NCBI GenBank assembly: GCA_028753945.1
Contig: JAPNXP010000006.1
Coordinates: 4,030,001-4,094,000 of the forward strand
Direction: 5' to 3'
From: Hexactinellida sp. DTS-2022
Lineage: Eukaryota; Porifera; Hexactinellida
Length of the DNA: 64,000 nucleotides
Shown: piece by piece, positions 148 to 63,891 of the stretch
How positions within the stretch are numbered: position 1 is the stretch's first letter
Layout of the letters: the number at the start of each line of letters is the position of its first letter
Position numbers and translations under genes: made by a program
Notes under the pieces: generated by a model
Told to the model about the DNA's origin: nothing
Databases searched by the model: none
Seen by the model: only the letters and a program-made list of their open reading frames with translations

Positions 148-3100
148 TTTGTACACATCTGATGATGGCTCTAACAATTCTAAGTCAGTCTTTAAAAGTC
201 CGTAATTAACATCAAATGGATGTGGAACCTCTTCTAGGCTTTCGTGACCCTTGTCTTTATCTTTTTGCATAGCTAGGGCCAGTTCAATATCTCCAAGTAC
301 CTGTATAGGAATTGTGTATTACAGTAGATGCCGGATATAAGAACATGCTAAGCAATATTATATGCAGTTCCCGACGATGTTCTTATAACCGGCATCCACT
401 GTATATAGAAAAATACAGTAGAACCTCGTTAGTACAAGCACTGTTAATACGAAATTCTGGTTATTACGAACACTATTATAGTCCCCTTCAAAGCCTTTCA
501 ATACAAATGATATTAGTGAATACGAATTCCGGATAAGGCGAACATTTTTTGACGGTCCCCTGGTGTTCGTACTAACGAAGTTCTACTGTACATACAGTAT
601 AACTTCATTAATAGGAACACCAGGGGATCGCCAAAACGTGTTCGCCTTATCCGGAATTCGTATTAACCGGTGTCGTTTGTATTGAAAAGGCTTTGAAGGG
701 GACTAAAATAGTGTTCGTAATAACCAGAATTTCGTATTAACAGTGCTTGTACTAACGAGGTTCTACTGTAGTTTGCTATATACAGTGGATGCCGGTTATA
801 AGAACATCGTCGGGAACTGCATATAATGTTCTTATATCCAGCATGTTTAGATCAGACCAGGTATATATAAATGGCAGTATAATACACTGATTCCAACTGA
901 CCATTAGCATATCTTTCTTCTGTTGGAGAGCTTCGGCATTGTTTATAGAGGGAGGGCGCTGACGACCAAAATCGTGGGGAATAATTGTAAAAAAATTGGA
1001 GCTAAACTCCATGAGTTTACCGGTTTTATTCGCATTCAGTTCGGCTTCAATTTTCTCCAAAATATCAAAACCTTTAGCAATCTGTCCCTTACTCAGTTTT
1101 CCTAACGGCATTTTCTTTACATCTAAATTAGTGAGTAAAATAAGTAAGGACTTACTTATAGTGAACTCCCGTTATAACGAAGTGCTTGGGACCTGTAAAT
1201 TCCTTCGTTATATCCAGATATTCATTATAAGCGGATAATAATAAATGAATTTAGTGCTCTGGGGGAAATCTCCATTTTATTATAAGCGGTTATTTTGTTA
1301 TATCCGACTTCATTATAACGGGAGTCGTCTGTAATTCCAATTTCTTTTCAGTTATTAAGTCTCTCGGTATACAAGTCTCTACCTATGTCAAAGCTCTTCA
1401 TCGCGTTGTTGAACATGTCGTTGTCAAAGATTAGTTTTACCAGCTCTTGTGTTGTTTTATCCAAGCAACAAGCTTTCACCTTTTTCGGTTTGGCATCTGT
1501 TTGTGTGTCCATAGGCACGATTATCTTAAGAAAAGATGAATATTTAGTATTCAGTGGTATTCGGCTAAATACCAAGTAATTTCAGTCCCAAGCGAGCATT
1601 TATTGTTAACTATGTCCCTCTAATAGTAAGTTTGCCTATTCTAAAGCAAATTTAGTGCAAAATGTGACTTGCTATTATGCGAACACCATTATAATTTCCA
1701 CAGAATTCGATGGAAATTACCAGAACTGCATATAATGTTCTTATAACCGACATAAATTATATAGGGGTGGGTATACGGCAAACATTTTCCAGTAGAATGT
1801 TCTTATATCCGGCATCTACTGTAGAGCAATTGCTATTAGGCGAACACCACTGTATATGGAGATTTTCTCCGGAATTCTATGATAATTCTATGGGAATTAT
1901 ATGGCAATTCTCACAAAAATCCTGTGGTAATACAGACCGATTGGGAACTCCCATAATATCGCTATATCATTTATAACAACCTACCTCCTCCTCATCAGAA
2001 TCTGCCAAATCTAGCAGTGTATATTTCCCAGCTACAGCTGTAAAGTTTTCTCGTTCGTCCCAATTATTCCGAGTCTTATCTTTGAATTTCTTAACAAATT
2101 CCTTCTCTGCTCCGTCCTGTTTGACGAATGGACCTTTCATTGTATTCTGTCCGTCTTCTCCCTAGAAATGGAACTGTAGATATGGTATTCAAAAGATTTC
2201 CTTTTAACAGTACTGTTTGTCAGAAAGGAATTTTACAAAATGGGATAAAATGAATTACAGTAGGATTCATTTTATCCCATTAGAATATGAACAATCGCTT
2301 ACAACTCGACCCCATCTGTTCCACACGTAGTAACGAAGTCCACTCTGTAGAAGCTGTATGACGTAATACTTGTTGTTATTGAATCCTAAATTCGTCTGAT
2401 TCAACATACAATCCCAGTCCTCAACAACCGTATAGGAGTTTGGGAATGGAACTTTTTTGTCAACTTTTCGTTGTGAAAGAGGTTTCTTCTTCTTCGTAGC
2501 TAAATTAAATATAAAGCCTGCTTTTAACATACTTAATCACACAAATAACGCGATTAAGTATGTTAAAAGCAGGCTATTAAAACACGATAATTTGCATCAA
2601 AAATTAAGATAAGGTCATCAGATAATGACATATCATAATTCTGAAGGGTGATATGTATACCTTGATACCATATCCATATATAGTTGTAATACATTTTTCA
2701 GGTCTATCATTTCTAATTATTGGGATAAATCAGATTTTCAATGGAAAACTGGACTCCTATTTTTCGAGTTTTATGCAGCATCTGTAATTAAAGTAGGCTA
2801 TGATACAACTTAGATATTTTTCTATTAAAGTAAGAGAAAGTCCCTTCATAATAGATTATTTACAGTGGTGTTCGCCTAATAGCAATTCCTTTAGTTCCCA
2901 AGCGAGCATTTAAAGATATTTATATTCCTCTAATAGCAAGTAAAGTGGTGTTCGCATATTAGCAAGTCGCATTTTGCACGAAATTTGCTTGCTATTAGAC
3001 GAACAGAATTAACAATAAATGCTCGCTTGGGGACTGAAAATACTTGCTAATAGAGCAGTTACTACTACGATAATTCCACTGTATATATACCATCTTGCGC

Positions 3101-3717
3101 CTGCAATAATTCCTTTGCTTTCTGGAATTCAGTCTGTTTAGGTTCTTTCTTTACTTTCTTAGACTTAGGAGCTGTGTCTCCCTCTTCCTCTTCCAGAGCC
3201 TCTTTGAGACGCTCTATTAACTCAGCCTTCTTACCTGTAGTCTCCAAGCCTATAATTGTAATGACAGTAGTGTTTGACAATGTAATAAAATCATAAAATC
3301 ATGATGATTTTAAAAAATCGAAAAATGATGATTTTTTAAAAGATAAAAAAATCGGATTTTTTAACCCAAATTTATCCAGAACCAAATTTGGACTCATATT
3401 CATAATATTGACCTGATTGACCGAAATTTGACCTAATTAACCGAAAATATTTGCATCAGATTATAGTGGCATGATTTTGTTCGTGGAAAAATACCCCATT
3501 AAGCGGAGTTGACTGTATTTCATAAAAAAATAATCGAAGATTGTGTAGAAGCCAGCGTTTGGAAACGGTTAATCTTACCTCTCTCCTCAAGTGCTTGCTT
3601 TATCTTTGGGACAGTTAGTTTAGAAAGATCAGTTTGTTCCTCTTCCATTGCAGTGGTTGCTCCTTTTGTTGTCTTTGTTGCGGCACTTTTAGTGGCGGCT
3701 TTTCTCCGTGGTGGCAT
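148..3717 (-). CDS. PARP2: poly(ADP-ribose) polymerase 2-like, SAP + WGR + regulatory domain (3' part outside window)
   Basis: DNA-break-activated nuclear ADP-ribosyltransferase. Exons on the minus strand: 3717-3579, 3249-3091, 2499-2303, 2161-1985, 1524-1383, 1122-902, 300-148, then off the left edge. Reading phases agree at every join. In order: a basic N-terminus (MPPRRKAATK), a SAP DNA-binding domain split over exons 1-2 (...ALEERG/LETTGKKAELIERL), a linker, a WGR domain (NQTNLGFNNNKYY ... WNRWGRV), and the helical regulatory domain (MPLGKLSKGQIAKG, IIPHDFGRQRPP). The last visible exon (LGDIELALAMQ) closes the regulatory domain; the catalytic ART fold with its H-Y-E triad must lie before base 1. 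WGR and regulatory segments match PARP2/3; the N-terminal SAP is like plant PARP2 and unlike the usual description of vertebrate PARP2. Start chosen at the first Met before the basic SAP leader. Confidence 0.92.
320..850. mobile_element. palindromic MITE cluster E-A | A'-E' in a PARP2 intron
   Basis: Four elements in mirror order fill the PARP2 intron at 301-901: family E 320-403, family A 414-590, family A inverted 593-770, family E inverted 781-850. Each A copy starts TACAGTAGAACC or its complement and ends in TA. The two A copies share private variants (tacaagcactg, aaattctgg) absent from other A copies, so the arms look like one inverted duplication rather than independent insertions. Confidence 0.85.
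1159..1333. mobile_element. family D MITE
   Basis: Begins gtgaactcccgttataacg and ends cgttataacgggagtcgtctgta. It contains several CGTTATA words and the cttgggacctgtaaattcc segment typical of D. Lies in the PARP2 intron 1123-1382. Confidence 0.8.
1549..1854. mobile_element. family C MITE with a family E fragment inside
   Basis: Outer C sequence (cagtggtattcggctaaata ... ctattaggcgaacaccactg) is interrupted at about 1720-1823 by E sequence ending ttatatccggcatctactgta. Lies in the PARP2 intron 1525-1984. Confidence 0.7.
2238..2282. repeat. short perfect inverted repeat in PARP2 intron
   Basis: aatgggataaaatgaat and attcattttatcccatt form a 17-bp stem around tacagtagg, in the 141-nt intron 2162-2302. 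It may be a very short MITE remnant, because the spacer contains tacagtag. Confidence 0.7.
2861..3083. mobile_element. family C MITE abutting a PARP2 splice donor
   Basis: Tacagtggtgttcgcctaat ... ccactgta with TTGCTATTAG-type words and the cgcttggggactgaaaata segment. It ends seven bases inside the intron from the donor at 3090 (exon ..GATG, then GTATATATACAGTGG on the minus strand). Confidence 0.8.
3370..3517. mobile_element. family F MITE
   Basis: Ends ccattaagcggagttgactgta; the interior carries gacctaattaaccg-type words. Lies in the first PARP2 intron (3250-3578). Confidence 0.65.
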
Positions 3718-4427
3718 GGTTAGTAAAATAAATAATAACTTTCTAATCGAAAATAATATAGTATAACTCGGTTATACATCTCCCTTGAGAAAATAAGTAC
3801 GTATTATCCGAGTGTCAGTAAAAAGTAACTAACCGAGTTGACACTACATACAAATATAGTAGAACCTCGCTAGTACGATCACCAGGGAACCGTCAAAATG
3901 TGTTCGCATTATCCGGAATTCGTATTAACTAACCGGTGTCATTTGCATTTGAGAAGGCTTAGAAGGGGACTGAATAGTGTTCGTAATAACGACGTTCTAC
4001 TGTACATACATACGTACTGCTTTATAAACTTGTATAGAGTATTTATTACTTACGAGCTTAATATTTACTATACCGAGTTCCTATTGTAGTTAGTTATACA
4101 GCTATATCTCTTAGCAACAATAAATATATTTTGGAATGTGGTCACTCCTTCCTTGGCAACATAATGTGAACTTAGAATGTAAATAAATTATTCTTGTGGC
4201 ATTCAAAATTTAATATTCGAAACCACAAATAATTATAACTAATGTAGCAGCATTCCAATGTACTAACAGTGTTGTCTAGTAATATAGCTGCCGAACATAA
4301 TTGTGACAAATATATTGAAGTCAACAGAATAACGATATTGAAAAGATAACTAATGGAAAGATGTTAAATCATAATCAGAACAAGAATGATCGAGTGTTGC
4401 ATGCTAAAATAATTCCAAAGGAAAATA
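3718..4427. other. intergenic, PARP2 5' side / SCAPER 3' side
   Basis: Holds a family A MITE at 3857-4004 (tagtagaacctcgctagtac ... gacgttctactgta). The rest (4005-4427) is AT-rich with no supported gene; it must contain the SCAPER 3' UTR and the PARP2 promoter. Confidence 0.7.
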
Positions 4428-7400: not shown

Positions 7401-10400
7401 CATCCACTAAGCATAACAGCAATTAAACCAGGTAATATTACTTAGGAAAAAGTGTAAAATGTAATTTTTAAAACTTTGCATAATTACCAAATTCCTTGGT
7501 AAATATATTCTATGAATTTAGCTAAAATATTATTATTACTAATAACTTTACCAGAAGTATAAATATAACTAAATTAAGATTTCTCTACCACATATCTATT
7601 TCTGTAGAATACAACACATTATCTTTAATGAAATTGTATACCAGCACTCAACTGAGGTCAATTAATACGTAACAACTCTTATTATAGTCATAAGATACAT
7701 AATAGTATTACTATAGCCTTGTAGGCAATAGTTTTAAATACTGAATACCATTCAGAAAGTATTTGTAAAATGTACTTCTTATAAGCAATTATCTGTTATT
7801 TTTGAGGTCCTATAGATAAATGGTTTGGTGAAAGATTTTACGATATTTAAAGTAGTACGTCACTCCAACTACAGTCAGGTCTGCTTAATGTGAAAGTTTT
7901 TTTAATATGAACAAGCCCTATAATCCCAATTTAATATCTTACATAGGGTTTGTATTAATTAAGTTGAGTTCGCTTATTATGAAGTCTCTCTATTTGGTCC
8001 CTTGAATGTTCGTAATAAAATAACCTGGCTGTAAACAAAATTATACAATCCCCTTGGAAGCGTTACATAACGTTTGAACGCCCCTTTTCAGTTATCATTA
8101 ACCTTTCGAAAAGTGATCGTAACAGACCCATTAAGCCACGTTTTAATTTCCAGTTTTTTTAACAGTTGTATTTCAATCCATTTGACATTTCGTGATAATT
8201 CATATTTGGGGATTTTAATAAATTAATTAATTAATTAGAAAAGTAGTAAGGAGCTACCAATGTCTTTTTATAAGAATTTATTGTATTATTCGTTAGAACA
8301 ATGTTAGCGAAAGCCCTTCTCTGTATTTTCCTGTTACAAGCATTAACACATGCAACCAATACAACCTGTCCGGATGGAAGTCATAACACACTCCAATGCA
8401 CAACTTATCCGATATCTTCTTGTGTAACAGAACTTAACGTGTACTCTACCAACACTTCTCTGTATATTGGGAACAGTTCAATGGCAAATTTGGAAACTGA
8501 GATTGCCGTATTTAGGATTCTTAACCAACTTCTAGCTAACCTAACAAGTTATACAGAACAGTGTGCTGATTTCTACCAAACTTTAACCTGTCTATATCTA
8601 TACACACCGTGTTATAACCGGAAACCGTTAAGGTTCTGCGAGATATCCTGTCTATCCATAAAACAGTCACAATGTCCGATAAGTTCTTACTTCTTCACAT
8701 TAGTATTGGGGAAATTAGGAGATACTGTTTTCAAAGATTTAAACTTTGGGAATTGCCAAGATTTAAATGAACGAGTTGATGGTTACCCACAAATCCCAAC
8801 AGAAGAATATAGTGCACCGTTAAACTGCACGTATGTTGGATTACCAGGGGCATTAAACGTTATACAGAATAAAAACGGGATTGTTAAACTCGTGACAGAT
8901 GAAATACACGATTCATCGAATATCTATGCAACTTCTTCACATGGTGTTGTACAAGTATTGAATGTAAATGCCAATATTTGGGGAGATGTCTGTATCGAAG
9001 AAGGGACTAGTATGGAGGAACTGGGTAGGATTTCTATGGTTGTATGCAAAAGTGTTGATTACCCTGGTGGTTCTGTAGAGGTTAGTTGCTTATTTATACC
9101 AGGAGTTTATCTAGGATTTTCTTGGCAGGCATTTTATAATGGAGGTAAAAATTTTACGGCACCCTACGGCGTATACAGTAGATGCCGGATATAAAAACAT
9201 TCTACTGGAAAACGGTTGCCATATACCCTATAATTTATGTGGGTTATAAGAATATTATATTCAGTTCCCGACGATCTATTATATTGTTATAAAATAGTAT
9301 ATACAGTCGACTCCGCTTAATAGGATCAAAATTTCACAGGATTTATAGGACGGAATGACAGTTTGGCTTAAAATATTTTCGATTAATAGATTTCTCCGCT
9401 TAATCGAGTCAAAGTAACCTGGTCCCGAGGTGACTCTATTAAGCGGAGTCTACTGTATTTGTATTTATACAGTTATAACTTATAATAATCTGGTGTATCC
9501 TATAGCACTATGTTGGTGAACCTTCAAACTCTTCAGGCTACTATATGATCAACAAACTGAGTTGTATAGGCAATGAGAGCAAACTCGATGATTGCCAACA
9601 TAATGGCTACGACTTCAAGTACTGTCCCCCGAATAGGAGATTACATATAACTTGTGATAAAGAAGTAGGGACAGTAAAGTTCGCTATTCCAATGAGTGAT
9701 GACCATAGCATATATGGGGTCCCGATTATAAAGCTCAATGGTGGTAAAATAGCAGAATTCTGTGCTGACACATTCACAGTAAACACTGGGATAGTAATAT
9801 GTCATTCTCTTAATGCTACATATCCTAACTTAACTGTTACGTTTACAAGTGAATTTGAGGATCAAGATTATGAACTAGCTACATTTAACTGTTTGGGAAA
9901 TGAAGCGCGGATATTTCAATGCGAAGAAATGAATACAACCTGTGTTTCTAATGAGAGAATTATGCTTTTTTGCACTGATTATACACAAAAAAATGAAGGT
10001 GGCATTTTACAACTAACAACTACAGATATGATAATTCTTGTATCCAGCATCATAATACTGTGTCTCGTCATTACAATTATAGCCGTTATAAGTCTATTCT
10101 GTCGTTACAGAACAACTACTAACAGGAAAATACAATTTAGTGCAAGTCGCACTAATATGATGCTAATGCAAACAATGGACACAAATATTGCATCAGAAAA
10201 TTTCATAGGGAGACACAAATACAATTATAGTGTCAATTCGAATGCTGTGAACCATATAACAGCAGAGCACGAATTTAATTACCCAGAAGTAAACAGGTTT
10301 GGAAATGAGGATGTAAACCTCGTTCAAATTCAACCAAAAAGTGATGAATCACTAAGCCCAGTTAGTCCAATTGAGAATTATATGGTCACAACTCTAAGCA

Positions 10401-13400
10401 TGCCTATATCTGATGAAAACATGTCAATAGGATTTCTACAAGAATACTGTGGTATAGATATAACAAGTTACGTTATTCCTATTTCAAGATTACAAATGGG
10501 AGTTAAGTTAGGTGAAGGTGCATTTGGTATTGTGTATAAGGGAATTATACTTGATAGGAATGAACAACAAATGAATCAAGTTGAGCCTCGAAATGAAATT
10601 GCTATTAAAACTTTGAAAGATAAATTTACAGACCAAGAATTGAAGAATTTACTTATTGAATGCGCACTGTTGAAAGATTTACAACACCCGAATATTCTAG
10701 GTAAGTTGCTTAGGCAAATTCCAAGTAAAGCTAAGCCAAATCTGATTATGGGAAAAACGATGATTGCATTAGTTGCATAATATAAGACGATTTACTAATA
10801 ATAGATTCTCGTTAATATGAATAAGGATAAGAGAAATATCGGTTAAGTACAAGGTTTAATTCTCCTAGCCTATACAAATGAATGCAAGTGACTCCGGTTA
10901 ATACGAATTCCGGATACTAAGAAGCAATTTCGACAGTCCCCTGGTGTTCGTATTAATAATAGTCTACTGTGGGTTTAATAATAAGCTAACTAACCATTCA
11001 GTAAAGGTCACTTATAATAATCACTCTATATAACTTTATATTTAAATTTCTAATCGAATTCATTGCCCTGATTATGATTACAAATATATATTTTTTTAAA
11101 TCCCTAATTTTACTGTGCTGACTACTACTCATAGTGGCAGTATTAAACTGTCTGCTTTATTTACTTTGCATGAATAGGACTTCTTGCTGTTGCCTGTGAT
11201 GGTAAAAGGCCCCTGCTCATTATCCCCTATATGGAGTGCGGAGACTTAAAAGCGTACCTAAAGAACTTGAGAGAGAACGCACTCAACTACTCTACGCTAC
11301 CAATACAGCTAAGCCAAAACCTGTTGGTTAGAATGTCCATAGACATCGCACAAGGAATGGAACATTTGACAGCAAAACGCTATGTACATAGAGATCTAGC
11401 TGCGAGAAATTGTATGGTAGATGGTGACTTGAATGTTAAAGTCTCAGACTTTGGTTTAAGTAGGGAATTGTATGTAGATGATTACTATAGGCAAACTGGG
11501 GGCAAATTACCTGCTAAATGGATGGCACCTGAATGTCTAAGTGATAATATTTGTAATGAACCCACTGACGTTTGGTCGTTCGGTGTAACTCTATGGGAAG
11601 TATACAGTTTAGGTCGTAACCCCTACCCTGGTGTTGGTAATAGCGAAATGCTGAAATTCCTTGAAGAAGGGAAACGAATGGAAAAACCAAAAGTGTGCCC
11701 GGATGAAATATACATGTTAATGCAATATTGTTGGCAAAGATCGCCTGCAAATCGACCAAATTTCGGGATAATAAGTCACTACCTGGTTAAACTTAGAGGC
11801 ACTGAAGCCAGTTGTGAAATGAGCGAGAGCCATAGAGTCACATGCGTCGCAATACAAGAAGAAGAAGCGAAATTACAGCAAATAGAATTACACGGCGATT
11901 ACTCAGATGGTAGCAGGAGGAAACTACAGCGACAAGATGCGGTATCAGTGCGAATAATAACACCTTTTACACCAATAAAACCGGTGCGTTTAGAGCATCT
12001 AGCCTCGCGATTCGAAGAAGCGACGAAAAAAGCATTTATCATGCATTGTATGAAATCAGTGTCGATGGACAGTAGCAAGTTTGGACCCTCTGATCACTAT
12101 ATAATACCACACCTAAGCATGTCTATACCAATAATAGACGAACAACATAGGGAAAGAACACGATCTCTAAACACAGTCAGGAAGAAAACTATTAAATTAG
12201 CTGAGAGAAAACAACGACATACATGTATTGAAAGCTCTAAAGGGTTGGTGAGTATTGATGAGGAACAAATGAGATTACAAGTGCCACCAAAAGGTAGGAA
12301 ATATACCTCAGCTTCGCTAAAGGGGAAGTCAGCTCAAAGTAAAGATGATAAATCCCTATTTTCTAAATCTACCTAATTTATTTACTTGGATTTATATAGT
12401 TTTGTTCTTTTTTTTAGTTAACAGTGTATTTAGTTGCTAAGTAAATACGCTTTTTGGTATAAATAATTGTTGAGATATATTCTTAATCTGTGTTCTATAT
12501 AGTTTTACAACATAAATTATTTAGCGGCCAATTATCATTACAGTAGACTCTCGTTAATACAACAAATTTTAATTCATCTAGCTTATATAATGCATGCAAG
12601 TCGAAAATAACTCGCGATATGGGAATTTTTTTCCGAAATTCAGTGGTGTTCGCGTAAGTCGAATTTCGCACGAAATTTGCTTGCTAATAGGCGAACTTGC
12701 TATTAGAGGAAGAGAATTAACATTAAATGCTCGCTTGGGGACTGAAATAACTTGCTAACAGAGCAATATTGCTATTAGGCGAACACCACTGTATATAATA
12801 TTTATAACCCTTGTATTATATATACTTACCTCGTTATAAGACTGTATTCTCTTCTCCATGTGCTGCTTCTTAGACTGAGCGAGCTCCTCTTTCCTGTCTG
12901 TTACGTATTGCTGCTTCCGCTCCAATTCATCTTGTAGCTCCAGCTTACGGCTGTTAGCTCCCATCTAGCAATTGGACATACATTAGACGCGTTTAGGTGG
13001 GGTAAGGTATATAACCAGTTTCTTTACTATGGCATTCAAGGGACCAAAGATTGTGTTAATAATAGGGACTTCATAATAAGCGAACTCAACTTAATACAAA
13101 CCCGATGTAAGTTGTTAAATTGGGACCATAGGGCTTGTTCATAATAAAGGGTTTTCATATTAAACAGATGAAAAATTGTTCACGATAAGTAAATACAGTC
13201 AGGTCTGCTTATTATGAAAAACTTTATGAACCTAGCCCTATGGTCCCAATTTAACAACTTACATAGGGTTTGTATTAAGTTGAGTTCGCTTATTATAAAG
13301 TCTCTCTATTATGAACACAATTATGCTCCCTTGAATGTTCATAATAAGATACCCTGACTGTATAACTTTTACCAGCATTCATATAAGCCTGTTACCTGAT

Positions 13401-16400
13401 TAATCAGATGTATTTCGCTAACTTTCCTTTCCTCCTCCTGCGCTTTCTTTCTCAGCTCATTCAGATGGCTCTGTCTGCGCTCATTAGCGCCCTGCAGCTT
13501 AGCCTGCATCTCCAGTCTCCGCTGTAGTCGCTCCTCGTCCTTGGAAGCTTGTAGTTCCTTTATCTGTAATATAGGATGGTAAAACAATGATTTTTGAATA
13601 GTCAGATTATAACGAAGTGCTTGGGACCTATAAATTTCTTTGTTTATCTACAATAAGGGAGTTATTCATATGGGATATGAGATTAACTGGTATTAACTAT
13701 AGTATAACATCGTTATTAGGAATACAGGTAATACGAACACTATTTCAGTTCCCTTCAAAGTCATTTTAAATACGAATGACACAGGTTGATACGAATTACG
13801 GAAAAAGGCGAACGCATTTTGACGGTCCCCTGGTGTTCGTACTAAATCAAGTCTACTGTACTAAATGAATTCTGTACTTATATATTATATACTTATACCG
13901 TATATTATATAATTATATATCGGCAAATACCGCCCGTTGGTGTTCGTATTAACGAGGTTCTACTGTATTTACAAACGACTCTATAATACACTGTAAAGAT
14001 GTCTTTGGAAACAATGTTATTAGCTATGTTACCTTGATCCTCTGTAGCCTGAGTCTGTCCTGCTTCTCCTGATATATTCTTATTCTCTGCTCCTTGGCTC
14101 TGGTCATTCTCTGCTCCAGAGTCTCTCTGGACTCTCTCGGAGACTTCTTGTTGGAGGAAGCCAGCTTCTCAGACAGCTGTTTCTGTCGATCTGATAGGGA
14201 ACAGGATAAGTGTAGTGAATGCACGTTATAACGTACTAGTATAGCTGAAGTATTAGTACATACTTTGGCTTAATACGCACTACAAAGTCAACTCTCGTTA
14301 TAAAGAAGTGCTCGGGACCGTGGTTTCATTTTGGTATAAGCAGAGTTCGTTATAAGCAGAGTTCGTTATATCCATTTCGTTGTAACCGAAGTTTTGATAA
14401 TGTAATAAGATAGAAGGATTTCCGGACCATTGAACTACTTCGTTATAAGTAGGTACTACGTTATTTCCGACTTGGTTATAACTTATAACGGGAGTTGACT
14501 GTACTAGTATAGTTGTTTCGTATTTGGGAGTCCTCATTTCACTGTGTATCAAGGGTGTTAAAAACTCCCTATTTCGCCTGTATGTTATAATAACTACCGA
14601 CTAACCACGAGACTCTTGTCCCAGCCTGTGGTCTACGCCGCTGGGATAAATAGTACTGAACCCAGGCCCCAGCTCTATACGCTGGTCTGTTATGGTAGTA
14701 TAAGCCCTGTGGCTCCCTTTGTGGGTAGATAGTAGAGGGGAGGGAGAGACAGTACGCGAGGAGCTGTGGCTAATGCTACGCTGTATCACCTGTAAATAAT
14801 GAGAAAATTTACACTTATATTTAATTTTGAAAGGTCATTTATTAATGGGAAAAGTATAAGCTCTGTGACTAATGCTACGCTGTATCACCTGGCTCCATAG
14901 CTGCTGGGGAGGGTCAGTTGTAGGGGATATCTCTTCAGCGGTCTAGTGATAGCGAGAATATTTATAGTCTTATATTAAATATCGAAATGTCATTGTTAAT
15001 GGGAAAATTCCAAAAAAAACCAAGTTTTTTATAAAATTCCCAATATTCTCAAGTATTAAAAAAATTCCAAAAAAACTCCAGTTTTTATAAAATTCCCACT
15101 ATACTCAAGTTTAATAAAATTCCAAAAATATTAAAGTTTTGTTGGATTATTCCAAATATGCTTATAATAATGACGTTTCTCAGTTCTCTGTTAATTTGCT
15201 TCCCCTATTAGCAACTTCGCCAATTAGCAACCAGATTTAGTTGCAAACACGGGGTGCTATTAAGCAACTCCACTAGTATAAGCCCTGTGACTAATGCTAT
15301 GCTATATCACCTGGCTCCAGAGCTGCTGGGGAGGGTCAGTTGTAGGAGATATCTCTTCAGCGGTCTATATATACAGTAGAGATATATATAATAGCGTTAT
15401 AGCAGTGTATTCTCACTAATGCAAATACAGTAACCTCTCGTTATGACGAAGTGAGCAAAGATATATAAATAACGTGTTCAGATTATTAAATGGTCAAAAG
15501 AGCCATTATAGGGAAGATTATATCTAATTTTGGAATTTTCCGCTACTTAATGTTTGAACTGCCCTAAGTTTGCAAACGAATACAGTCAGGTTCTTTTATT
15601 CATACTTCATAATAAGCGAATTCAAAATAATACAAACCCTATGTAAGTTGTTAAATTAGGTCCATAGGGTTTGTTCATTAAAAAAGTTTCAAATTAAGCA
15701 GACGAAAATTGTTCACAGTAGCATGAACACAATTCTTGGTCCCTTGAATGTTCATAATAAAAGAACCTGACTGTATTATCTCACCTGTTCTTCTCCTTTC
15801 TTGCTTTCCTTATCCTCACTCAGATCGGATAGCGAATCATTAACGAATAGAAACTCACTGTTAATAGTACCATTGGGACTATTCCTGGCATTCCTATCTG
15901 TACTATGTGTTGCCATAGTATTCAAACCAGGGACATGGAATGCAAGAGGAGGGATAGCATTTGTAAAATGTATTTCTTCCATCAACTGAGGGGTTAAGCT
16001 AAGAGGCGAGTTGAAAGCGGGCTCATCATTAGCAATGCTATGGTGTGATGAATCAGAGTCTCGAGTAACCTTCCTCTGGAAATGAGATGATATAAGAATA
16101 TAGGCTATATAGTAGAACCTCGTTAGTAAGAACATAAGGGGACCGTCAAAATGTGTTTGCTTTATACGAAGTTTGTATTAAAAGGCTTTGAAGGGGAGTG
16201 AATTAGCGTTTGTATTAAGCTGTTCGTATTAACGAGGTTATACTGTAAATAAATATTATGTAAAGACTATTGGAAAAATCCGATATAATATAGTAGAACC
16301 TGTCAATAATGGTCACCCAAGGGATTTGGCTAAAAATAGCCATTATGTACAGGTGGCCATATACACAGGTTAATTATAATATGGGAAGTTATGTGGGGAC

Positions 16401-18143: not shown

Positions 18144-21100
18144 CTAAAAATGCTTTTCCTCAGAACTCTGAATTGTGAATGTAGATGTTCTCAATCGAGA
18201 CCAGTCAATATTATTAAAAATAGCATGCTGTTTTAGTGTATTAGCATAATGCATTCTTTCTGACGAATTCACTGTGATAAGTTGTGAAATGAGAGAACAC
18301 ACGAGATCTCTGTTAAGCGTAGAATGTAAGAAACACTTTGTTGGGAAATATAGACATTGACCCTCCCTGAATCCTTCAGGGTGAGTATGCATTAAACTTT
18401 GCCCTGTCACGAGTTCATAGCAAATAGCGCCTAGACTCCACCAATCAGCTGACTCAGAATAAACAGGTGTCACGGGGTGAGTACACTCCGGGGCTAAATA
18501 AGGGAGGGTCCTAAGGTCGTGTAGACGGTCTGGTGTATCCTCCCAACGAATGGGGTATGTTAGCTTTATAGAATTGTTTGATTTGGAAATAAGAACGTCC
18601 CATGGGCATAGGTGGAGATAGAAGAGACCTAATGAAATGTGGTAAATACAGTGGTGTCGTCTAATAGCAATATTGCTCTATTAGCAATATTATATTATAT
18701 ATATTGCTCTTTCAGCAAGTTATTTATAGTCTCCAAGCGAAAAGTTCGTGCGTTGAATTTCGAAAATTCGTTTCAGCCCTACTAACAACTAAGTGTCTAC
18801 TGTAATTCCTTATTTATTCAGCTACATACTATAGTGAACTCCCGTTATAACGAAATACCTGCTTATAACGAATATTCGGATATAACGAAGGGATTTACAG
18901 GTCCCAAGCACTTCGTTATAACGAGAGTTCACTGTATACGATGATGATGACGAGACAGAAAAAATAAAACCCCGGTTTCGACTGTATCCACTTACCTATT
19001 AAATGCAGTTCCTCTAGTGTACTTATTAACTGTGTTGTCCATCGTATAAAATCATCCCCTCTCGTCTGTAGGAAATCTCCCTTGTAATATTGAGCAGCAA
19101 TTGTATGCAAGTCAGTACCCTCTATGTATTCAAGCATTAAGTATAGCAAATGAGAACTTTGTACTGAACCCAATAACTGTACTATATTGGGGTGTGGAGC
19201 TGAATGCATTAAGTTACGAGACATCTTTATATGTCTGTGTCGGATATCGGCAAAGTTAATCTTACATTTTTGTACCGTTTTAAGGAGAAAAGGACGTTGA
19301 CCTGAATCAATATTTTTTGAAGATTGTACAAGTAAGAATTTGTTTTTGACAATTTCTATTACTCTGAGCTCATCAAGTGTAATAGGGATTTTGAATATCT
19401 GTTTATTTGCAATATTTTCTGGTTTATTATTTAATTCACTCTGAAGATTGACTTCATTTAACTGCGTTTTAACTTGTTCAGCATAAGTAAGGTACTTTTT
19501 AAGAGAAGCTCTAAGTTTCTTTCTATAGTTAGGATCTAAATTCTGATTCCTTGTAGCTTCAAAAAACATTTCTATAGCATTTTCTAACAAAGTGAGTCCT
19601 TCTTCTAACTTTCCCTGTTTGCAAAGTTCTATGCCAGAACTGTATAACTCACCACCTTGAGTGACACCTTCAAATCCTGCGATTGAGTTCTCTTCAGAAT
19701 TTGAAATATTAACCGGGTTGGGACAGGGAATTTCCTCATTTATAACATCATTCGTTTGGTTAATATTTAATGGTAATGTCTCGTATACAGAGTGAATTGA
19801 TTTACTCTGTTGTTGTTGTTGTTGTTTTTTCTTTGCTTTTGAATGTTGTCTTGTTTGTTTTTCTAATTCTTTCAAAGCATTTTCTGTCTCATCAGCTACA
19901 TTCGTCCACCATTCAGGTAAAACTGAATCACTTTGTTCCACAACACAATTTTCATTCTCTATCACATTATCCATATCACTAGTCACTATAGGAATAACAT
20001 CTTTATCCGTATCACTAAAAATACCATCAGTACAAAGTAATACAGGATCTTGAATATCATTATTAACATTTTCATTTTCATCACAGCTAAATGGCTGTAA
20101 CAATGGGTCTAATACCAAAGGGGTATTAATAGAATCAAACTCCACATCTCCTTGATAGCTATCATCAGAGCCTGAATATATACACTCAGTATTCTCAATA
20201 GATTCGCTAGAAAAACAATATTCTGTGTCTGACTCCAAAATAAGGAGAGATTGGTAGGGACTTATATAAGTTGTTTCGTAGCATTCAGTAGACAGTTCGT
20301 TAGATTTGTTAGAGTTATCATTATTGCTATCTTCCTTATCAGGAATGGGAAGAGATGTTTGGGGGTCTGTTGTGTTCTCTTGGCTGCTGGACATCTCTCT
20401 CTCTATTAAATAGCATTAATTAAATATACAGTAAGGTAGCATATAATACTGCAGTAAACTCCCCCGTTATAACCAAAATTGTGTTCATAATAGAGAGACT
20501 TAATAAAAAGCTAAGTTAACTTATACAAATCCTATGTAAACTCTTAATTGGATCCATAGGGCTTGTTCATAATAAAAAGATGTACATATTAAGCAGGAGA
20601 AAAATTGTTTATAACAAGTTGTTTATAAATTATTTATACCTGACTGAGGCGTATAATAATGTATGTTAATATGTGTAAGTAAGTACGTACATACCACTTT
20701 CCTGGAATGAATACGAGCTCTTAAAAGAAGTATCTTTTCTATCATTTTCGAAAAGAGGATTGTTGTTAGTTGGTTGAGAGTATGTGGTGTGTCTCAGTTT
20801 TGGAAAACTCAGCCTTTCTATGCCAATGTTTGGGAGACTGGTTCTCCTAGTTGTTTGACTCAAGAATTCTGTGAATTCCGTTGAACATAGAATATCTCTT
20901 GATTGGGAAATATCTTTGAAAAATTTGGAAATATTATGTTTTCTTGTTGCAATAATCTAAACAGAAAATCTACTGTAGAACCTTGTTAGTACGAACACGG
21001 TTAATACGAACATTATTTCAGTCCCCTTCAAAGCCTTTCAATATAAAGGACACCGGTTAATACGAATTCCGGATAAGGCGAACTCATTTTGACTATCCCC

Positions 21101-25260: not shown

Positions 25261-25301
<41 letters not shown>

Positions 25302-28351: not shown

Positions 28352-28423
28352 AGGTTCCACCGAGATTTGAACTCGGATCGCTGGATTCAAAGTCCAGAGT
28401 GCTGACCATTACACCATGGAACC
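28352..28423 (-). tRNA. tRNA-Gln (anticodon UUG)
   Basis: Read on minus, the 7-bp acceptor stem GGTTCCA/TGGAACC closes. The D arm contains TGGTGTAATGGTCAGCA, the anticodon stem CTGGA/TCCAG holds loop CTTTGAA with anticodon TTG, and the T arm has GTTCAAATC. No intron is present. It closely resembles the canonical metazoan tRNA-Gln-UUG, including intact A and B boxes, and so should be transcribed by Pol III. Confidence 0.97.
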
Positions 28424-46236: not shown

Positions 46237-46680
46237 TATAACCAGGAACTTTAAATGCTATGGAAAGGGGAATACCTTCTAATTTAGATAGAAATACAGT
46301 AGAAGTTCGTCACTCGAACACTATTTCAGTCTCCTTCAAAACCTTTTCAATACAAATGATATTGGTTAATACGAATTCCGGATAAGGCAAACACATTTTG
46401 ACGGTCCCCTGGTGTTCGTACTAACGAGTTACACTGTAAACCAATAACATTTGCATTGAAAGGCTTGAAGGGGACTGGAATAGTGTTCGTATTAACCGGA
46501 TTTTAATATTAACCGTGTTCGTACTGACGAAGTTTTACTGTATTTAATTAACTTAAGAATAGCAATTGTTATGGGAATTTGTACTGCAACTAAATTATCT
46601 CATATCAACAGCAACTCTAAATTTAACTACAAGTATTAATTAATTCCCTAACACTATATGCCAAATAACTATTGTTCGCA
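46237..46680. mobile_element. intergenic with family A MITEs
   Basis: A full copy at 46292-46438 (tacagtagaagttcgtcact ... aacgagttacactgta) is followed by a second half-copy to 46541 (cgaagttttactgta). The remainder is the HYOU1 3' flank, with no gene. Confidence 0.7.
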
Positions 46681-49600: not shown

Positions 49601-52386
49601 AACAAGTTACCTCGATAGGGTATATGTTAGCATCCTGTAATTGTATTTCCTTAACCCTGAACCCTTTACTGAGAACTGCTCCTTGGTACACTGCTCCCAT
49701 AGCAGCAGACTCATCAGCATTAATTGTAGTCGTATAGTCTTCCTTGCCTAGCTCAGCAAGAAGCATTTCTCGAACCTATATGCATTATGAACGGTTGAAC
49801 TATTCCATTTTATGAATACTAAGTATATACGTACAGTAGAACTTCGTTAGTAGGAACACCAGGGGACTGTCCAAATGTGTTCGCCTTATCCGGAATTCGT
49901 ATTAACCAATATCATTTGTATTGAAAAAGCTTTGAAGGGGACTGAAATAGTGTTCATATTAACGATTATGTTGGCTTTCATGATAAACCCATTATAGTGC
50001 AATAATTTCTACATAAATATATATTCGATATATGTTCTGTAGTTAAGAACATATGTTTTGTTATACCTGTATAACACGTATAACACGTGATACGCGTATC
50101 ATACAACTTAGCAATTAAAATACCTTTGGTAGTCTACTTGACCCTCCAACTGGGACAATCACATCGATTTCCTCTCGTGATATTTTTGCTGCGTCAATTG
50201 CTTCGTTAATGACACCCGGAATTTTGTTGAACAAAGGTTCACAAAGATCTTCGAGGTCAGTGCGTTTAACAAGTATTTTCATATCTATATCATTAATTAG
50301 AGATTCTACATGTGCGTAATGCTCATTGTTGGCACTTAACACGTTTTTAACACGCTTGGATTCCTTTAGCAACTTGGCCATCGCTCTATCTGAATTCAAT
50401 ACACTAATTTCGTTGTTCTTTTCAGCTTGTTGTTTTTCAAATTTTGTTGCAATATGCCTGGCTAGTAAATAATCGATATGTGCTCCACCTAAATAAAGGA
50501 AAATTGTAATAAAGATACAGTCAGGTCTGCCTATTGTGGACAGTTTTCCGTCTGCTTAATATGAAGAACTTTTTATTATGAACAAGCCCTATGGTCTATG
50601 GTCCGAATTAACAACTTACATAGAATTTGTATTAAGTTGAATTCGCTTATTATGAAATCTCTCTATTATGAACACAATTTTGGTTCCTTGAATGTTCATA
50701 ATAAAAGAATCCTGACTGTATTTGGTATAGTGAGGTTCTTTTATTATGAACATTCAAGGGACCAAAAATTGTGTTCATAATAGAGAGACTTCATAATAAG
50801 CGAACTCAACTTTAATACAAACCCTATGTAAGTTGTTAAATTGGGACCATAGACCATAGGGCTTGTTGTTAATAAAAAAACTTCATATTAAGCAGACGAT
50901 AAGTTGTTCACAATAAGCAGACCTGACTGTATTCATATTTATCGACTGTATCGTACTTACCAAGATTACGATCAAATCCCGTTCCAAGAATGGTCACTTT
51001 AGGAATTTCTTTATTTCCATCAGGAATTTCAAACAGAACTAAAGTTGCAATTGTGGCACTTGCTCCCATATCATAAAATAGAACTATTTTTGGAGTTTTC
51101 TTGTACGTTTCCCGTTGGAAAGTTCCATAGTGGAGGGCCACTGCTAGATTCGAATTTATCAGATTGAGAACCTAAGATGTTATACTATAAATACAGTATA
51201 TACTCGTTAATCCGAACTTTGCTAATTCGTACCTATGATTCGGATTATGAGAGTTTATTATCCTAATGTATGTAAGTAAGACAACACTTTTCCTTATCCC
51301 AATGAGCGTCGGACTATGAATTAGAGCCTGCAAAATCCGACAATTTGGCAATCTGACATTTTCCCCTATCCCAACTGTTGTAGGATTAGACAGGTTCTAC
51401 TGTATTAGTATTGTATTGAAGAAAATCAATATTTATTCACTCACTTTGATCCCAACTAGGTCAGCAGACCTCAGTATAGCCCTTCGCTCTGCCTGTGTGA
51501 AGTAAGGAGGAACAGTAATCACCATGTCCCTAATGGGATGGAATTCTGAGAATTCTTCAGAGAGCTGTCGCGAATGATTTAGCATCATTGCTAAATGTTA
51601 AATTACAATTGTATTATAGGATCAAAACATGGGTGCCTGTATAATACACTGAGCACAAACGAAAAAACATACCTAACAGTTCTTCCGAAGTATACCCAGT
51701 ATTGTGTATAAGATGCATTGGAGAATCTGGATTAGGCTGCAATCCGAGTTCAGGAAATTGAGAAATAAAGTCTGTGACCACAGGATTGGTAGGGACAGCT
51801 CCTAGAGTCCTTGTGAAATATTTGTGCATAAAAGCTGGCTTCTTGATACCAGCAGATAAAGACTCTTCTCCTATGAATATTAACAAGAGTCAATTGACAA
51901 ATACACAATTGCTATGTACAGTAGAACCTCGTTATCACGAAGATGGTTAATGCGAACACAATTTCTGTCCCCTTCAAAGACTTTTCAAAAATTTTTATAT
52001 CGGTTAATACGATGTCCGGTAAGGCGAACACATTTAGACGGTCCCCTGGTGTTCGTACTATCGAAGTTCTACTGTAGTATATACAGTAGTATCCGAATAG
52101 TTTGTTACTACAAGAATGAATAAAGTAGCAGTAATACAAGATATAAAGGAATTGTACCTATAAATCTTTCCTTCTGAGAAGTGTACACTGCCATGGGAGT
52201 TTTCCTCCTAGTCTCCTTATTGAGAACCATCTCCATTGGAACACCAGGCTTAACAAGACCTATTCTTATCCATTCTGAACCTAGATCTATGCCCAATACG
52301 GCCATACCTTCAACTTGGTTGTATTTGCTAACCTGCATCGATAGCATCAAGAGTTGTATAGCGAGTAGAATCCGTAGTATTTTCAT
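46681..52386 (-). CDS. HYOU1: HYOU1 (GRP170/ORP150), ER Hsp110-type chaperone
   Basis: Large ER-lumenal Hsp70-superfamily chaperone and exchange factor for BiP. Ten exons: 52386-52158, 51870-51673, 51590-51445, 51171-50961, 50488-50124, 49775-49611, 49289-49080, 48821-48183, 47889-47703, 47345-46681; phases close, 1004 aa (human 999). Signal peptide MKILRILLAIQLLMLSMQVS; ATPase core AVLGIDLGSEWIRIGLVKPG, VITVPPYFTQAERRAIL, VLFYDMGASAT, VGGSSRLPK and NADESAAMGAVYQGA; beta domain; acidic Asn/Thr-rich insertion (NTTNDSNTNTSENATK, many glycosylation sequons); C-terminal helical lid; then an acidic/poly-Gln tail. The C-terminus is HTDL, a non-canonical KDEL-like retrieval signal where vertebrates have NDEL. 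The donor after LYFLK (49080) was preferred because the nearer GTAACA breaks the frame. Confidence 0.96.
47449..47612. mobile_element. family A MITE, eroded termini
   Basis: Tagggtaaactcggttagta ... aacgtggttctactata. HYOU1 intron 47346-47702. Confidence 0.75.
47890..48182. other. HYOU1 intron without a pogo-like MITE
   Basis: One of the few introns over 200 nt in which I recognise no element; AT-rich, unremarkable. Confidence 0.4.
49380..49580. mobile_element. family B MITE
   Basis: Tacagtcaggtacctttatt ... cagacctaactga. HYOU1 intron 49290-49610. Confidence 0.8.
49832..49970. mobile_element. family A MITE, right end lost
   Basis: Tacagtagaacttcgttagt ... aaatagtgttcatattaacg. HYOU1 intron 49776-50123. 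Confidence 0.75.
50516..50931. mobile_element. inverted pair of family B MITEs (long palindrome)
   Basis: Copy 1 50516-50720 (tacagtcaggtctgcctatt ... aatcctgactgta), copy 2 inverted 50727-50931 ending agacctgactgta. Both carry the same private repeat of tatggtc (ctatggtctatggtcc or its complement), unlike other B copies. They fill the HYOU1 intron 50489-50960 except for about 28 bases on each side. Confidence 0.9.
51192..51404. mobile_element. family H MITE
   Basis: Tacagtatatactcgttaat ... agacaggttctactgta with aatccgac words and ccttatcccaatgagcgtcg. HYOU1 intron 51172-51444. Confidence 0.8.
51917..52077. mobile_element. family A MITE
   Basis: Tacagtagaacctcgttatc ... atcgaagttctactgta. 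HYOU1 intron 51871-52157. Confidence 0.85.
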
Positions 52387-52810: not shown

Positions 52811-55800
52811 TTATATAGGAATATCTGGTGGTGGCGCGGGAATTTTCGCGATTTGCTCCGAAGTGAGTTCACTAGAATAGGCATTTCTTGATTGCGGAAT
52901 GGTAGGGGTATTTGAGGTATCTTCAACAATAGGATCAGATTGGCCACCTTCTGATTTTGTTTGTTCTTCTTTCTCAGATTTATGTTTGTGTTCTTCAGCT
53001 TCTTCTGCCGCAGTTTTGTCCGCGCGGAAAAAAACGCGAGCTGAGCTAAGTGAGAAATCTAGAAGTTTGAATTCTCTATGGAACATCTCGATACGTCTCT
53101 GTGTAAACTCCATTGTCTGGTCAAGTTTGGAGTCCGAACGAGACATACGTCTAGTCTCCTAATAATTATATCATAGTAGTAGTAAGGAATTATACAGGAG
53201 CGCGAGACGCTCCTTTTGGAGTATGATTTTTTTAAATTTTAAATTACGAGCGCTAAAATTAGGAATCTTCTCCTATAGCGTAAGATAATTTGTGATTTAG
53301 ACGGATTAAAATTGGATCAAACTAGGATAGGATTTTATTTAGTAATTCAAATGGTTGAGTAGAATAATGTATCTGGCAGATACATAATTGAATTGCAATG
53401 CAATAAAGTGACAGTAGTAATATCCCAATGTATACTTACCTTGAGTTTGTCATAATCCTTCCCTTGCTTTTCCCTAACAGACTGAAACCAATGTAGCGAG
53501 TCAAAAGCTGAGTACTGGTCAAGCAACTTGAGAATATAAGCTATTCCCATTGCAAAACCATCGTCAGTGAAAGCTGCCCCATTTTTGTTCTTCTTATTCA
53601 TTTTATCCTTTGCGTTTATTAGGTGCTCAACGAAGCACAAAGTCAATGCAGGAATTATTACATAGAAATGATGCATATGTCGATTCTTTTGTGAGCGCAC
53701 TTCATCAACAAACACGTCAACAAGGAGCTTAAAATAATCCGTTCCTTCTGCGAAATTCGTAGTTAAATTATCGATAACTGCGTCTAACTGTTTACAAGAA
53801 TCTAAAGTTTCCTGTGGGAGTTGAGATTCTTCACCAAGCTCCTGGAACGAAAATATATCTTCAAGGTCTGGAATAAATCTTATAGCATTGCTAGTACAAT
53901 GTAGACCACCTGAGCGAATCATTCGTATGTACCCCATTGCATTTCCGATTTGAGTTATAACTGTACGGAACTTGTCAAGGTAACTTACTCCATCATCTGA
54001 CATACCTAACTTCTTAATTGAGCGTGAAACTTTCTCAGCACGTTCGTGAGGGTATTTCTGATCTAAATCGTATTTTTGTTCGCGGAAGAATCTTATTTCT
54101 TTAATTAATTTTCCTTTAATATACTCATCACCAAGGAATTGTGAGAATATATAGAATTTCTTTCTTAAAAACTGGAAAGTAAAGTTGACTGTTGTGTTCA
54201 TTATTCCGATACCATGTGTACGAATAGAATTAGCGACGTGACGGATATTAATCGTGTCTAAGTGTTTATTCTCACTATGTTGTTGGATAAATATTTGGTT
54301 GTTCAAGTTGTAATAATAGTCGCGAACAAATACTTGTATATTTCGCATTATTTCCAACACATCAAGTCCTTGTTCAAGTGTCTGACTTGGCAAATGTGGT
54401 TCAGTCATTTCAATGCCATATTTCTGTCTCGCTAATTGCCGCATATCGCCATACGTTTTCCAATCATGTAATGCAACTGTGTTCAGGTTATAAAACGTTT
54501 GGTCTAAATAGTGACGTAGATGTGCCTTCATATCCACTGTTCGTGTGAATATCTCAATTGGCGGGAGTCGTATGAAGTGAGTAAGGTCGGTTAAATCGTC
54601 TTTCTGTTTGAAAGGGTTTCGGTCATCAAGTTTGAGGTGTGTGTGAATACTGAGTCTTAAATCTGTCTCTACTTCATTGCTTAGTGTCTCTAGAAGCTTG
54701 TTGCGTATGTACCAGTATGTTTGTTGTTCGATAGCCTTCTCGAGAGCACCTAACATTGTGTTAATTATAAGTTGATAATTCTAGAACAATGAACTTTTAA
54801 AGAATTGGTCAACTTAAGTATTAATTTATTCATAATCATTATAAATTATTGAATGAATATATAGTGGTGTTCGCGTAATAGCAAGTCACATTTTGCACGA
54901 AATTTGCTTGTTAATAGGCGAACTTGCTATTAGAGGAACAAAATTAACATTAAATGCTCGCTTGGGGACTGAAAATAACTTGTTAATAGAGCAATTACTA
55001 TTAGGCGAACACCACTGTAGTAAACTTGGCTAATCTTAGACAAACCCCTGATCCCTTGGGGTTCGTATTATTAATGAGGTTCTACTGTAATTATAGTATA
55101 TAGCATACCTTTCTCTAAGTGTCTGCCATTAGCCAGTAGCTTCAAGCAGTCCTTGAGTGCATACAGCATGTACTGCAGTCTAGGCGCCTGCGCCGGATGT
55201 GCCTGTAGGTCTGTGAGATAGAGAGGCAGGAGAGTGTCCCTGTACCAATACAGGAATGTAGTGTCCGTAGCCTGGTCCAGCCAGGTGCGGATCTCTGCTA
55301 TAGCCTCAGCTTTCTTGACGACTCCAGCTAACTGCTGAGTCTCGTCTTCTCGCATTATCTTCATGCTCACCTGGGATGCGATGTGGAATGCTATCTTGGC
55401 TACTATCCTCCGAGCATCAGTACTAGGACCTATATAACACAGTGTAACATATATTATACTAGGCCATGTATAACACAATGTAACATATATTATACTAGGC
55501 CATGTATAACACAATGTAAGTACTAACATATATTATACTAGGCCATGTATAACACAATGTAACATATATTATACTAGGCCATGTATAACACAATGTAACA
55601 TATATTATACTAGGCCATGTATAACACAATGTAAGTACTAACATATATTATACTAGGCCATGTATAACACAATGTAACATATATTATACTAGGCCATGTA
55701 TAACACAATGTATATTATACTAGGCCATGTATAACACAATGTAACATATATTATACTAGGCCATGTATAACACAATGTATATTATACTAGGCCATGTATA

Positions 55801-63259: not shown

Positions 63260-63494
63260 AATAGAACGAAAGTAATTTACAACCCCAAAAGACACTTATT
63301 TTATACACACACTATTTATTATTGTCTTATTTTATACTATTAGGTATATTTTAATAAAAAATTGAAAGAGTTAGTTATTGCAACCATGGATAGTTAACAT
63401 GAGACAATTAAAAAATATTATAATTTACAGCCCCGAAAGAGACTATTTTATACACACACTTTATTATCGTCTTATTTTATACTAATAGATATAC
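63260..63494. repeat. direct repeat 3' of the orphan membrane gene
   Basis: About 63271-63356 and 63418-63494 share taatttacarccccraaag, ttttatacacacact and gtcttattttatacta. The second copy is interrupted by the family J insertion; the first provides an uninterrupted version of the same site (ggtatattttaataaa). Confidence 0.8.
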
Positions 63495-63679
63495 AGGTAA
63501 ACCTCCCAAAGCGGCACCTCCGAGTAGCGGCAACCTCCGAGAAGCGGCACAAAATGATTCTCCCGATGGGTGCCGCTTTGGGAGTTTTACCTTACGAGCT
63601 ACCTCCCAAAGCGGCAACCTCCGAGAAGCGGTACAAAATCATTCTCCCGATGGGTGCCGCTTTGGGAGGTTTACCTGTA
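63491..63679. mobile_element. family J MITE, GC-rich, dimeric
   Basis: Tacaggtaaacctcccaaag ... ctttgggaggtttacctgta. Inside are two near-identical halves, each with the words aacctccgagaagcgg and gggtgccgctttgggag around aaaatgattctcccgatgg. The TA at each end matches the empty site in the neighbouring direct repeat. Confidence 0.9.
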
Positions 63680-63694
63680 TTTTAATAAACACAC

Positions 63695-63891
63695 TATAGT
63701 CAGGTTCCTTATATTATGAACATTCAATGGTCCAAAAATTGTATTCATAATAGAGAGACTTCATATAAGAAAACTCAACTTAATACAAACACTATGTAAG
63801 TTGTTAAATTGGGACCATAGGACTTGTTCATAATAAAAGTTTTTCATATTAAGCAGACGAAAGATTGTTTAGAAAACCGATTTTGACTGTA
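63695..63891. mobile_element. family B MITE with a family I-type right end
   Basis: Left end tatagtcaggttccttatat and B interior (cactatgtaagttgttaaat). The right end is agaaaaccgattttgactgta, which is I-like rather than the B terminus gcagacctgactg. A second I-like end occurs at about 63938-63955 (aaaaaccggtttcgactgt). Confidence 0.75.

Follow-up and report, generated by a model that had tools for sequence, protein, structure and literature searches.

The families of miniature inverted-repeat transposable elements (MITEs) in a 64,000-nucleotide stretch of the sponge Hexactinellida sp. DTS-2022 (contig JAPNXP010000006.1, positions 4,030,001 to 4,094,000 of the forward strand; the window) look unlike one another and share a pattern of pogo/Tigger-type transposon ends, which is real and found throughout the genome. 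A reading made from the sequence alone (the sequence-only reading) had proposed that these families hide one module, in which family-specific inverted words surround a short spacer with a GGGA core, and pattern counts and a stem test confirm this across the genome (112.4 Mb in 18 contigs; the window lies in contig C15). On the 3' side of the transposase gene the end runs TACAGT, word, a few nucleotides, GGGA(C), about 7-10 mostly A/T nucleotides and the word inverted. The end on the 5' side runs TACAGT and direct words, followed in some families by the same core in the same orientation along the element.

A chance origin of the pattern was assessed in 51 sequences, the window and 50 loci from elsewhere in the data of this genome (together 363,603 bases), by scoring inverted word pairs (score at least 8, spacer 10-40 nt) that follow TACAGT or one of 25 permuted hexamers. 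TACAGT occurs at 429 sites, 74 of which have such a stem, and GGGA is present in 37 of these 74 spacers compared to 4 with TCCC. The permuted hexamers have 5,136 sites and 387 stems, with GGGA in 23 spacers and TCCC in 30. Of the 51 occurrences of GGGAC, 34 begin 30-34 nt from the TACAGT start, and the other 5-nt bins hold 0-4 each. The loci that make up this sample (numbered with an L below) were mostly picked by transposase matches, which makes the sample rich in such elements; whole-genome pattern counts are free of that bias. The pattern TACAGTN{22,32}GGGACC has 4,743 matches in the genome (2362 + 2381), compared to 182 (88 + 94) for TACAGT with the reversed core GGTCCC at the same gap, 322 (161 + 161) for a gap shifted to N{78,88} and 73 (36 + 37) for the pattern read backwards. 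Among 100 matches listed, all from contig 1, the gap is 25 nt in 58, 26 nt in 18 and 24 nt in 8, or 24-26 nt in 84. The permuted hexamers and the genome-wide controls rule out chance. The genome counts show abundance, orientation and position rather than independent origins because each family contributes many copies. Viral contigs scanned for the pattern had 0 matches.

The core was also found where it played no part in the selection. Paired TACAGT ends were located without use of GGGA in 13 transposase families, and GGGA falls at positions 26-42 of the inverted-word end in 8 of the 13 (shuffle mean 0.52, maximum 4 in 5,000 shuffles). Among 26 clusters picked only by their stem, 9 spacers contain GGGA and 1 contains TCCC, and within this set AATT (10) and TTTG (9) are as frequent as GGGA.

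The layout was measured in 14 modules, 7 from window families and 7 from transposase families, that were selected and delimited by hand (those of A, E and J were typed as composites; L024, L025, L032, L036, L038, L037, L039, L046, L035 and L043 were left out). The outer word lies 4-6 nt before the core and the inner word 7-10 nt after it, with a spacer of 18-21 nt. The spacer is less constant in length than the 17-20 nt first proposed: in L024, L025, L032, L036 and L038 the spacers as set are 22-26 nt. The 37 automatic GGGA spacers comprise 15 of 18-20 nt, 2 of 22 nt, 3 of 12-16 nt and 17 of 30-40 nt; in the long ones that were examined the stem pairs with a second word copy. A strictly fixed spacer was dropped in view of the 22-26-nt families and this spread. 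In the 14 modules the mean A/T content rises from 0.45 before the core to 0.67 after it. The words had been described as changing completely between families, and they do not: a loose 16-17-bp form is kept, with a CCTC-like start, an A/T middle and recurrent endings such as GAACA, GGACA, GGTCA and GGGGCA, and words without any common form were rejected. In an information profile of 31 clusters, which include split families and some chance sites, no position in the 26 nt before the core exceeds 0.5 bit. For the core the profile is circular because the clusters were picked by GGGA.

Candidate autonomous partners are present as transposase-bearing elements with such ends, a DDE_1 domain and a CENP-B-like region with two helix-turn-helix (HTH) motifs. 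DDE_1 (PF03184) has 114 matches in the genome, and paired ends flank a DDE_1 match in the 13 families, each with TACAGT..ACTGTA at both ends, a putative TA target duplication and inverted terminal repeat. A scan of 10 open reading frames (ORFs) identified HTH_Tnp_Tc5 (PF03221) in 10, DDE_1 in 9 and CENP-B_N (PF04218) in 6 at E 0.01, with CENP-B_N above the curated cut-off in 3 of the 6. The DNA-binding region matches human CENP-B (1HLV) at 5.9e-14 for L001 and 3e-28 for a 9-sequence profile. The balance is even for the preferred explanation as a whole, in which the window families are short non-autonomous derivatives of many pogo/Tigger-type DNA transposons, the module is the transposase recognition region at one of their two ends and a slowly changing part of the transposase reads the core. 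L050:3733-6983 has L032-type ends around a transposase of a different clade; these are probably unrelated MITEs on either side, a captured transposase being less likely, and the pairing was judged spurious. L014:638-696 and 2643-2701 form a 59-nt perfect inverted repeat on either side of a transposase match. Four TACAGT..GGTCCC matches about 3.3-3.9 kb apart in G000 C1:903575-914096 suggest a tandem repeat that holds one such end.

The two ends are unlike: 3' of the gene the words are inverted and flank the core, and 5' of it they are direct. All 18 of 18 paired elements score higher for inverted words at the 3' end than at the 5' end, although L022 and L038 are nearly tied (6 vs 5). In L038 it is the 5' end that has GGGA and the 3' end that has direct words, and the corrected count is therefore 17 of 18 elements and 12 of 13 families. 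In the sister pair L038:3764-5852 and L043:3781 the GGGA end seems to lie 5' of the transposase gene, opposite to its place in the other families (one end was found in L043). A stretch in the same orientation is common to both ends in L001 (11 nt, GGGACCGGAAT), L032 (13 nt, ACATGGATAATTA) and L036 (7 nt, AGGGGAA), and in L003 (6 nt, GGGACT) and L009 (5 nt, GGGAC) the shared stretch is short but is the core itself. The ends of the other 8 families share 4-6 nt of non-core sequence, which is background; matches in the opposite orientation are 4-8 nt. Positions 45-80 of the direct-word end contain TCCC in 5 of 13 families and GGGA in 4 of 13. The smallest MITEs, the D copies of 105 and 107 nt, fuse both ends around one core as read by eye, and the layouts of J and K are related (by eye).

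The words co-vary within a family. On average the outer word scores 12.23 of 14 against its own inverted inner word and 8.71 against those of other families, and it scores 12.31 against the direct words at its own far end compared to 8.75 for other families; neither difference was reached in 20,000 permutations (0/20,000 each). Swapped-orientation controls gave 8.54 vs 8.47 and 8.77 vs 8.46. These tests exclude families without two resolved ends (for example L006, L007, L026, L033, L034 and L050), and the comparisons of words with HTH regions cover 12 families with uncorrected p values, L025 being omitted as it has no second HTH. Word distance correlates with the distance of the first HTH (HTH1; r = 0.44, p = 0.001) and of the second (HTH2; r = 0.42, p = 0.007), and the partial correlation with HTH1 given HTH2 is 0.35 (p = 0.004). 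The recognition helix of HTH2 is the more conserved, with an identity of 0.455 vs 0.269 for HTH1. Judged from these comparisons the words belong to the transposase, and the data do not assign them to one HTH. The words look bipartite and are about as long as the 17-bp CENP-B box, and one two-HTH region might therefore cover one word.

The presence of the core varies with HTH2. L024, L032 and L034 have in common an unusual HTH2 helix, SWIQRW. The lack of GGGAC in L032 was forecast from this helix before its ends were read, and the ends then gave ACATGGATAATTA; no ends were found for L034. S-x-G-W is present in the HTH2 helix of 10 of 11 GGGA families and in 0 of 4 others (Fisher p = 0.0037; p = 0.011 with L024 and L032 as one lineage). 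The table holds the paired families plus L008, L018, L035 and L043, each with one resolved end; L018 stands for L039, and L025 is excluded. The sisters L013 and L037 (support 0.994) have similar word ends, ACGGGGCA and TCGGGGCA, and differ in helix (ASEGWL in L013, ASEVWL in L037) and core (GGGACC in L013, none with GGGA in L037). L039 has GGAACC as its core, and its close copies (L018, L021 and a copy in L035) have GGGACC. Families with GGGA sit on several branches of an internal tree of the DNA-binding region.

In the preferred explanation the two-HTH region of a single transposase subunit would bind each 16-17-bp word. The core would be a further site, read by a part of that transposase that changes slowly, with HTH2 of a subunit as the likeliest candidate, and would help to build an asymmetric synaptic complex. 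The words would drift along with the transposase because it moves only DNA that has its words, and the core would stay because its reader is more conserved. A bolder reading, less likely than not, is a two-layer address. A polar core read by a slowly changing transposase surface, HTH2 with its S-x-G-W helix, would mark the end and its direction, and diverging words would keep the families apart. The sequence-only reading had suggested a conserved and a fast-changing partner, such as the two DNA-binding parts of a pogo/CENP-B-like transposase. One site design with a conserved core and a family word, belonging to pogo/CENP-B-like transposons, stands, and a conserved reader acting with a fast-changing reader is plausible and partly supported; a clean split of HTH1 for the word and HTH2 for the core was not borne out since the words track both.

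Several observations weigh against the preferred explanation. The inverted-word end is without GGGA in 5 of the 13 representatives (L024, L032, L037, L046 and L039), and the deep nodes of the internal tree are poorly supported (0.00-0.84). The S-x-G-W table is hand-set, limited to that motif and post hoc except for L032; L035 breaks the motif yet has GGGACC, and L046 retains G-W. Word distance also correlates with the pre-catalytic region (r = 0.44, p = 0.005), and it still correlates with HTH2 once HTH1 is accounted for (r = 0.32, p = 0.021); with the recognition helices alone the partial correlations are 0.25 (p = 0.06) for HTH1 and 0.28 (p = 0.024) for HTH2. The words thus track HTH2 and the pre-catalytic region too, so shared ancestry may explain part of the signal and the readers stay unseparated. 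In three families (L001, L032 and L036) the core recurs clearly at the direct-word end, and [GC]TCCC is found in the assumed other end of 6 of 14 window rows, several of these ends being uncertain. As a general rule a core at the direct-word end is weak and was not borne out, the shared-stretch, TCCC/GGGA and window counts being mixed.

A host protein is an unlikely candidate for the reader of the core. The words would be bound by the transposase, and GGGAC with its A/T run would be the site of a conserved bending or chromatin factor that many families exploit. The core is common to families with very different transposases in one nucleus, and the higher A/T content after the core in the 14 modules is as for a bend. 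L024, L032, L037 and L046 have another core in the same genome, however, and differ at HTH2. Families with different cores in one nucleus favor a transposase surface over a host factor, and the differences at the HTH2 recognition helix in GGGA-less families, which are correlative and mostly post hoc, point the same way, against the host factor that the sequence-only reading had offered as an alternative. Relatives are reported to require the transposase only, according to passages on ISY100 (PMC2170065) and the title of a Tc1 paper cited there, and the ISY100 authors leave room in those passages for host factors that raise efficiency (PMC2170065).

It is improbable, at a similar level of doubt, that a transposase subunit or surface other than HTH2 reads the core, be it the catalytic domain, the linker or a dimer partner. 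The words look bipartite and at 16-17 bp are long enough for both HTHs of one subunit, and the pre-catalytic region tracks the words as well as the HTHs do. The changes that accompany the loss of GGGA sit instead in the HTH2 recognition helix, the only region scanned for them. It is very unlikely that GGGAC is an undecayed relic of common ancestry without function. All ends are alike in outline (TACAGT-NNA-CCTC), and conservation of the core is therefore not independent between families; against this, the sequence just upstream of the core retains little information in the 31 GGGA-picked clusters, and GGGA is in the 8 inverted ends chosen without it despite a mean identity of 27-35% between the DNA-binding regions. 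A DNA or RNA hairpin, cruciform or small-RNA precursor, with the spacer as its loop, would fit good stems such as 19/19 at 36751-36806 and 26/27 or similar elsewhere, and was rejected as the least probable reading because these words are also found directly repeated at the opposite end and many A copies retain the core with stem scores of 4-8.

For each family one string quoted in the sequence-only reading (two for F) was searched for and found in the window: E at 24283, D at 24783, F at 9396 and 9431, B at 50742, C at 3027 and 54962, J at 63551 on the minus strand, A at 21521 and 23729 and on the minus strand at 46395 and 13816, and the K string AAGGGATTT at 16319 and 18888. The window contains 8 elements of 105-195 nt in which both ends match at 18 or more of 22 positions (other-end prefix matches are given in brackets below). 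The minimal MITE D is 105 nt long (24768..24872, plus strand; 18/22) and reads, by eye, TACAGT, word, TGCTT-GGGACC-TGTAATTTC and three inverted words. Its second copy of 107 nt (18830..18936, minus; 20/22) holds the K string at 18888, and a D-type inverted-word end with a 20-nt spacer and GGGACC lies at 1157..1220 (plus), where only this end was resolved. MITE E (24273..24433, plus; 20/22) has ATGTCGGTTATAAGCACAT around cttcgggaattgcattta. Further E inverted-word ends lie at 36743..36806 (plus; 19-nt perfect stem, spacer cgtcgggaactgcaaata) and 781..844 (plus; 18-nt spacer with GGGAAC), and a copy with extra bases within the module lies at 320..403 (minus; terminus at 403). MITE F (9302..9457, minus; 21/22) has CTCCGCTTAATAGAGTCA around cctcgggaccaggttactt; the module is present as described and is located at the right-hand end, from which it is read, of the element beginning at 9302.

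MITE B (50726..50931, plus) has TATTATGAACA around ttcaagggaccaaaaattg, and its far end is tentative (15/22), as is that of a copy with a GGAACC core (50516..50720, minus; 13/22). Two other B copies have GGGACC (15581..15775, minus; 20/22) and GGGAGC (13194..13362, minus; 18/22) as the core. MITE A (51917..52076, minus; 18/22) has the CGAACAC pair around caggggaccgtctaaat as described, but many A copies form poor stems. Inverted-word ends of A lie at 21493..21567 (plus; CCAGGGGACCGTCAAAAT) and 49832..49906 (plus). MITE K (16289..16436, plus) starts TATAGT and reads, by eye, CAATAATGGTCA-CCCAA-GGGATT-TGGCTAAAAA-TAGCCATTATG, with a word, an A/T stretch and GTCCCC at the other end (by eye). The 27-nt spacer given for K is found between perfectly paired bases and is 21 nt from the word position used for the other families. 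MITE J (63492..63679, minus; 22/22) has two modules within 188 nt, each a word, CCCATC-GGGAGA-AT(C/G)ATTTTG and inverted words, and its termini are TACAGG in place of TACAGT.

MITE C (2861..3083, no strand assigned) had been credited with the block GGGGACTGAAAATA and a poorer stem. The block is present but adjoins direct words at one end, and the inverted words enclose TTTTGCACGAAATTT, with TGCACGA between them; a second copy (54860..55019, no strand assigned) has a like arrangement of GGGGACTGAAAATA and TGCACGA. The alternative core TGCACGA between inverted words is common to both C copies and L024:876-950, with GGGGACTGAAAATA at the other end in C. The inverted word AT(C/T)GGGTTTTTTTGCC of the transposase element L024 also occurs at 23885..23939 (minus) around a spacer without GGGA, and this repeat is the sole case in the window matched by word, by eye, to a transposase-bearing element. 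An animal-type receptor kinase with SRCR and tyrosine-kinase domains is seen in two ORFs of the window (9545-12376, plus; 53347-54756, minus), which also has an ORF of WASH complex subunit 7.

A shared grammar of terminal hexamer, word, core at a preferred distance and unlike ends would let many non-autonomous families be recognized from sequence and paired with their transposases, and it opens the question of which residues determine the word. It also yields a refutable hypothesis about the sequences that HTH2 of CENP-B-like proteins can recognize, and it suggests that about 105 bp can hold a full set of end signals. If the two-layer address is true, one genome holds a natural series of matched HTH-word pairs for reading the CENP-B-like recognition code. 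The shared end design also offers a natural system in which to study how the DNA site recognized by a transposase changes.

The elements are of a known kind, and their end grammar (polar core, co-varying words and unlike ends) appears undescribed in the searchable open-licence literature; a search of that literature, mostly of titles, abstracts and passages, gave no description of such a core or of unlike word ends. The features that would be new are the unlike ends, the co-variation of words within families, the tracking of the transposase by the words, and the absence of the core with loss of S-x-G-W in HTH2 (mostly post hoc). Inverted repeat/direct repeat transposons such as Sleeping Beauty have more than one transposase site per end; unlike in Sleeping Beauty, inverted words here surround a core at one end and direct words stand at the other. 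Wang et al. are said to have described in 1999 a 12-bp site of the Drosophila pogo transposase. To judge from the title of that work, an HTH transposase there likewise reads a short word within the terminal repeats; the title contains no core. The CENP-B box is 17 bp (NTTCGNNNNANNCGGGN) and, unlike the ends described here, a single site. CENP-B has the same two-HTH region (1HLV), and by eye the words have about the 17-bp length of the box and its two-part look. CENP-B and other vertebrate genes descend from pogo-type elements, and the abstract of PMC7386202 names 12 genes. In the passages available from two accounts, pogo/Tigger elements have a TA duplication, short terminal repeats, and CENP-B_N/HTH_Tnp_Tc5 and DDE domains (PMC7386202, PMC9219625). 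The sponge elements are like Tigger/pogoR there in having DDE_1 with CENP-B_N/HTH_Tnp_Tc5, a TA target, short terminal repeats and one ORF in about 2-3 kb (PMC7386202, PMC9219625), and differ in that those passages give terminal repeats of 8-33 bp for Tigger and say nothing of a GGGAC core, of subterminal words or of two ends that differ. Similar in outline are the Tigger-like MITEs of Rhodnius prolixus, whose termini as printed in the excerpt are 17-24 nt long and end before the position of the core (PMC4678618), and the termini TACAGTGGTACCTCGGTTTTCGAA and TACAGTGGAGTCTCGGTTATCCGT fit the TACAGT-NNA-CTC-word outline of the ends described here.

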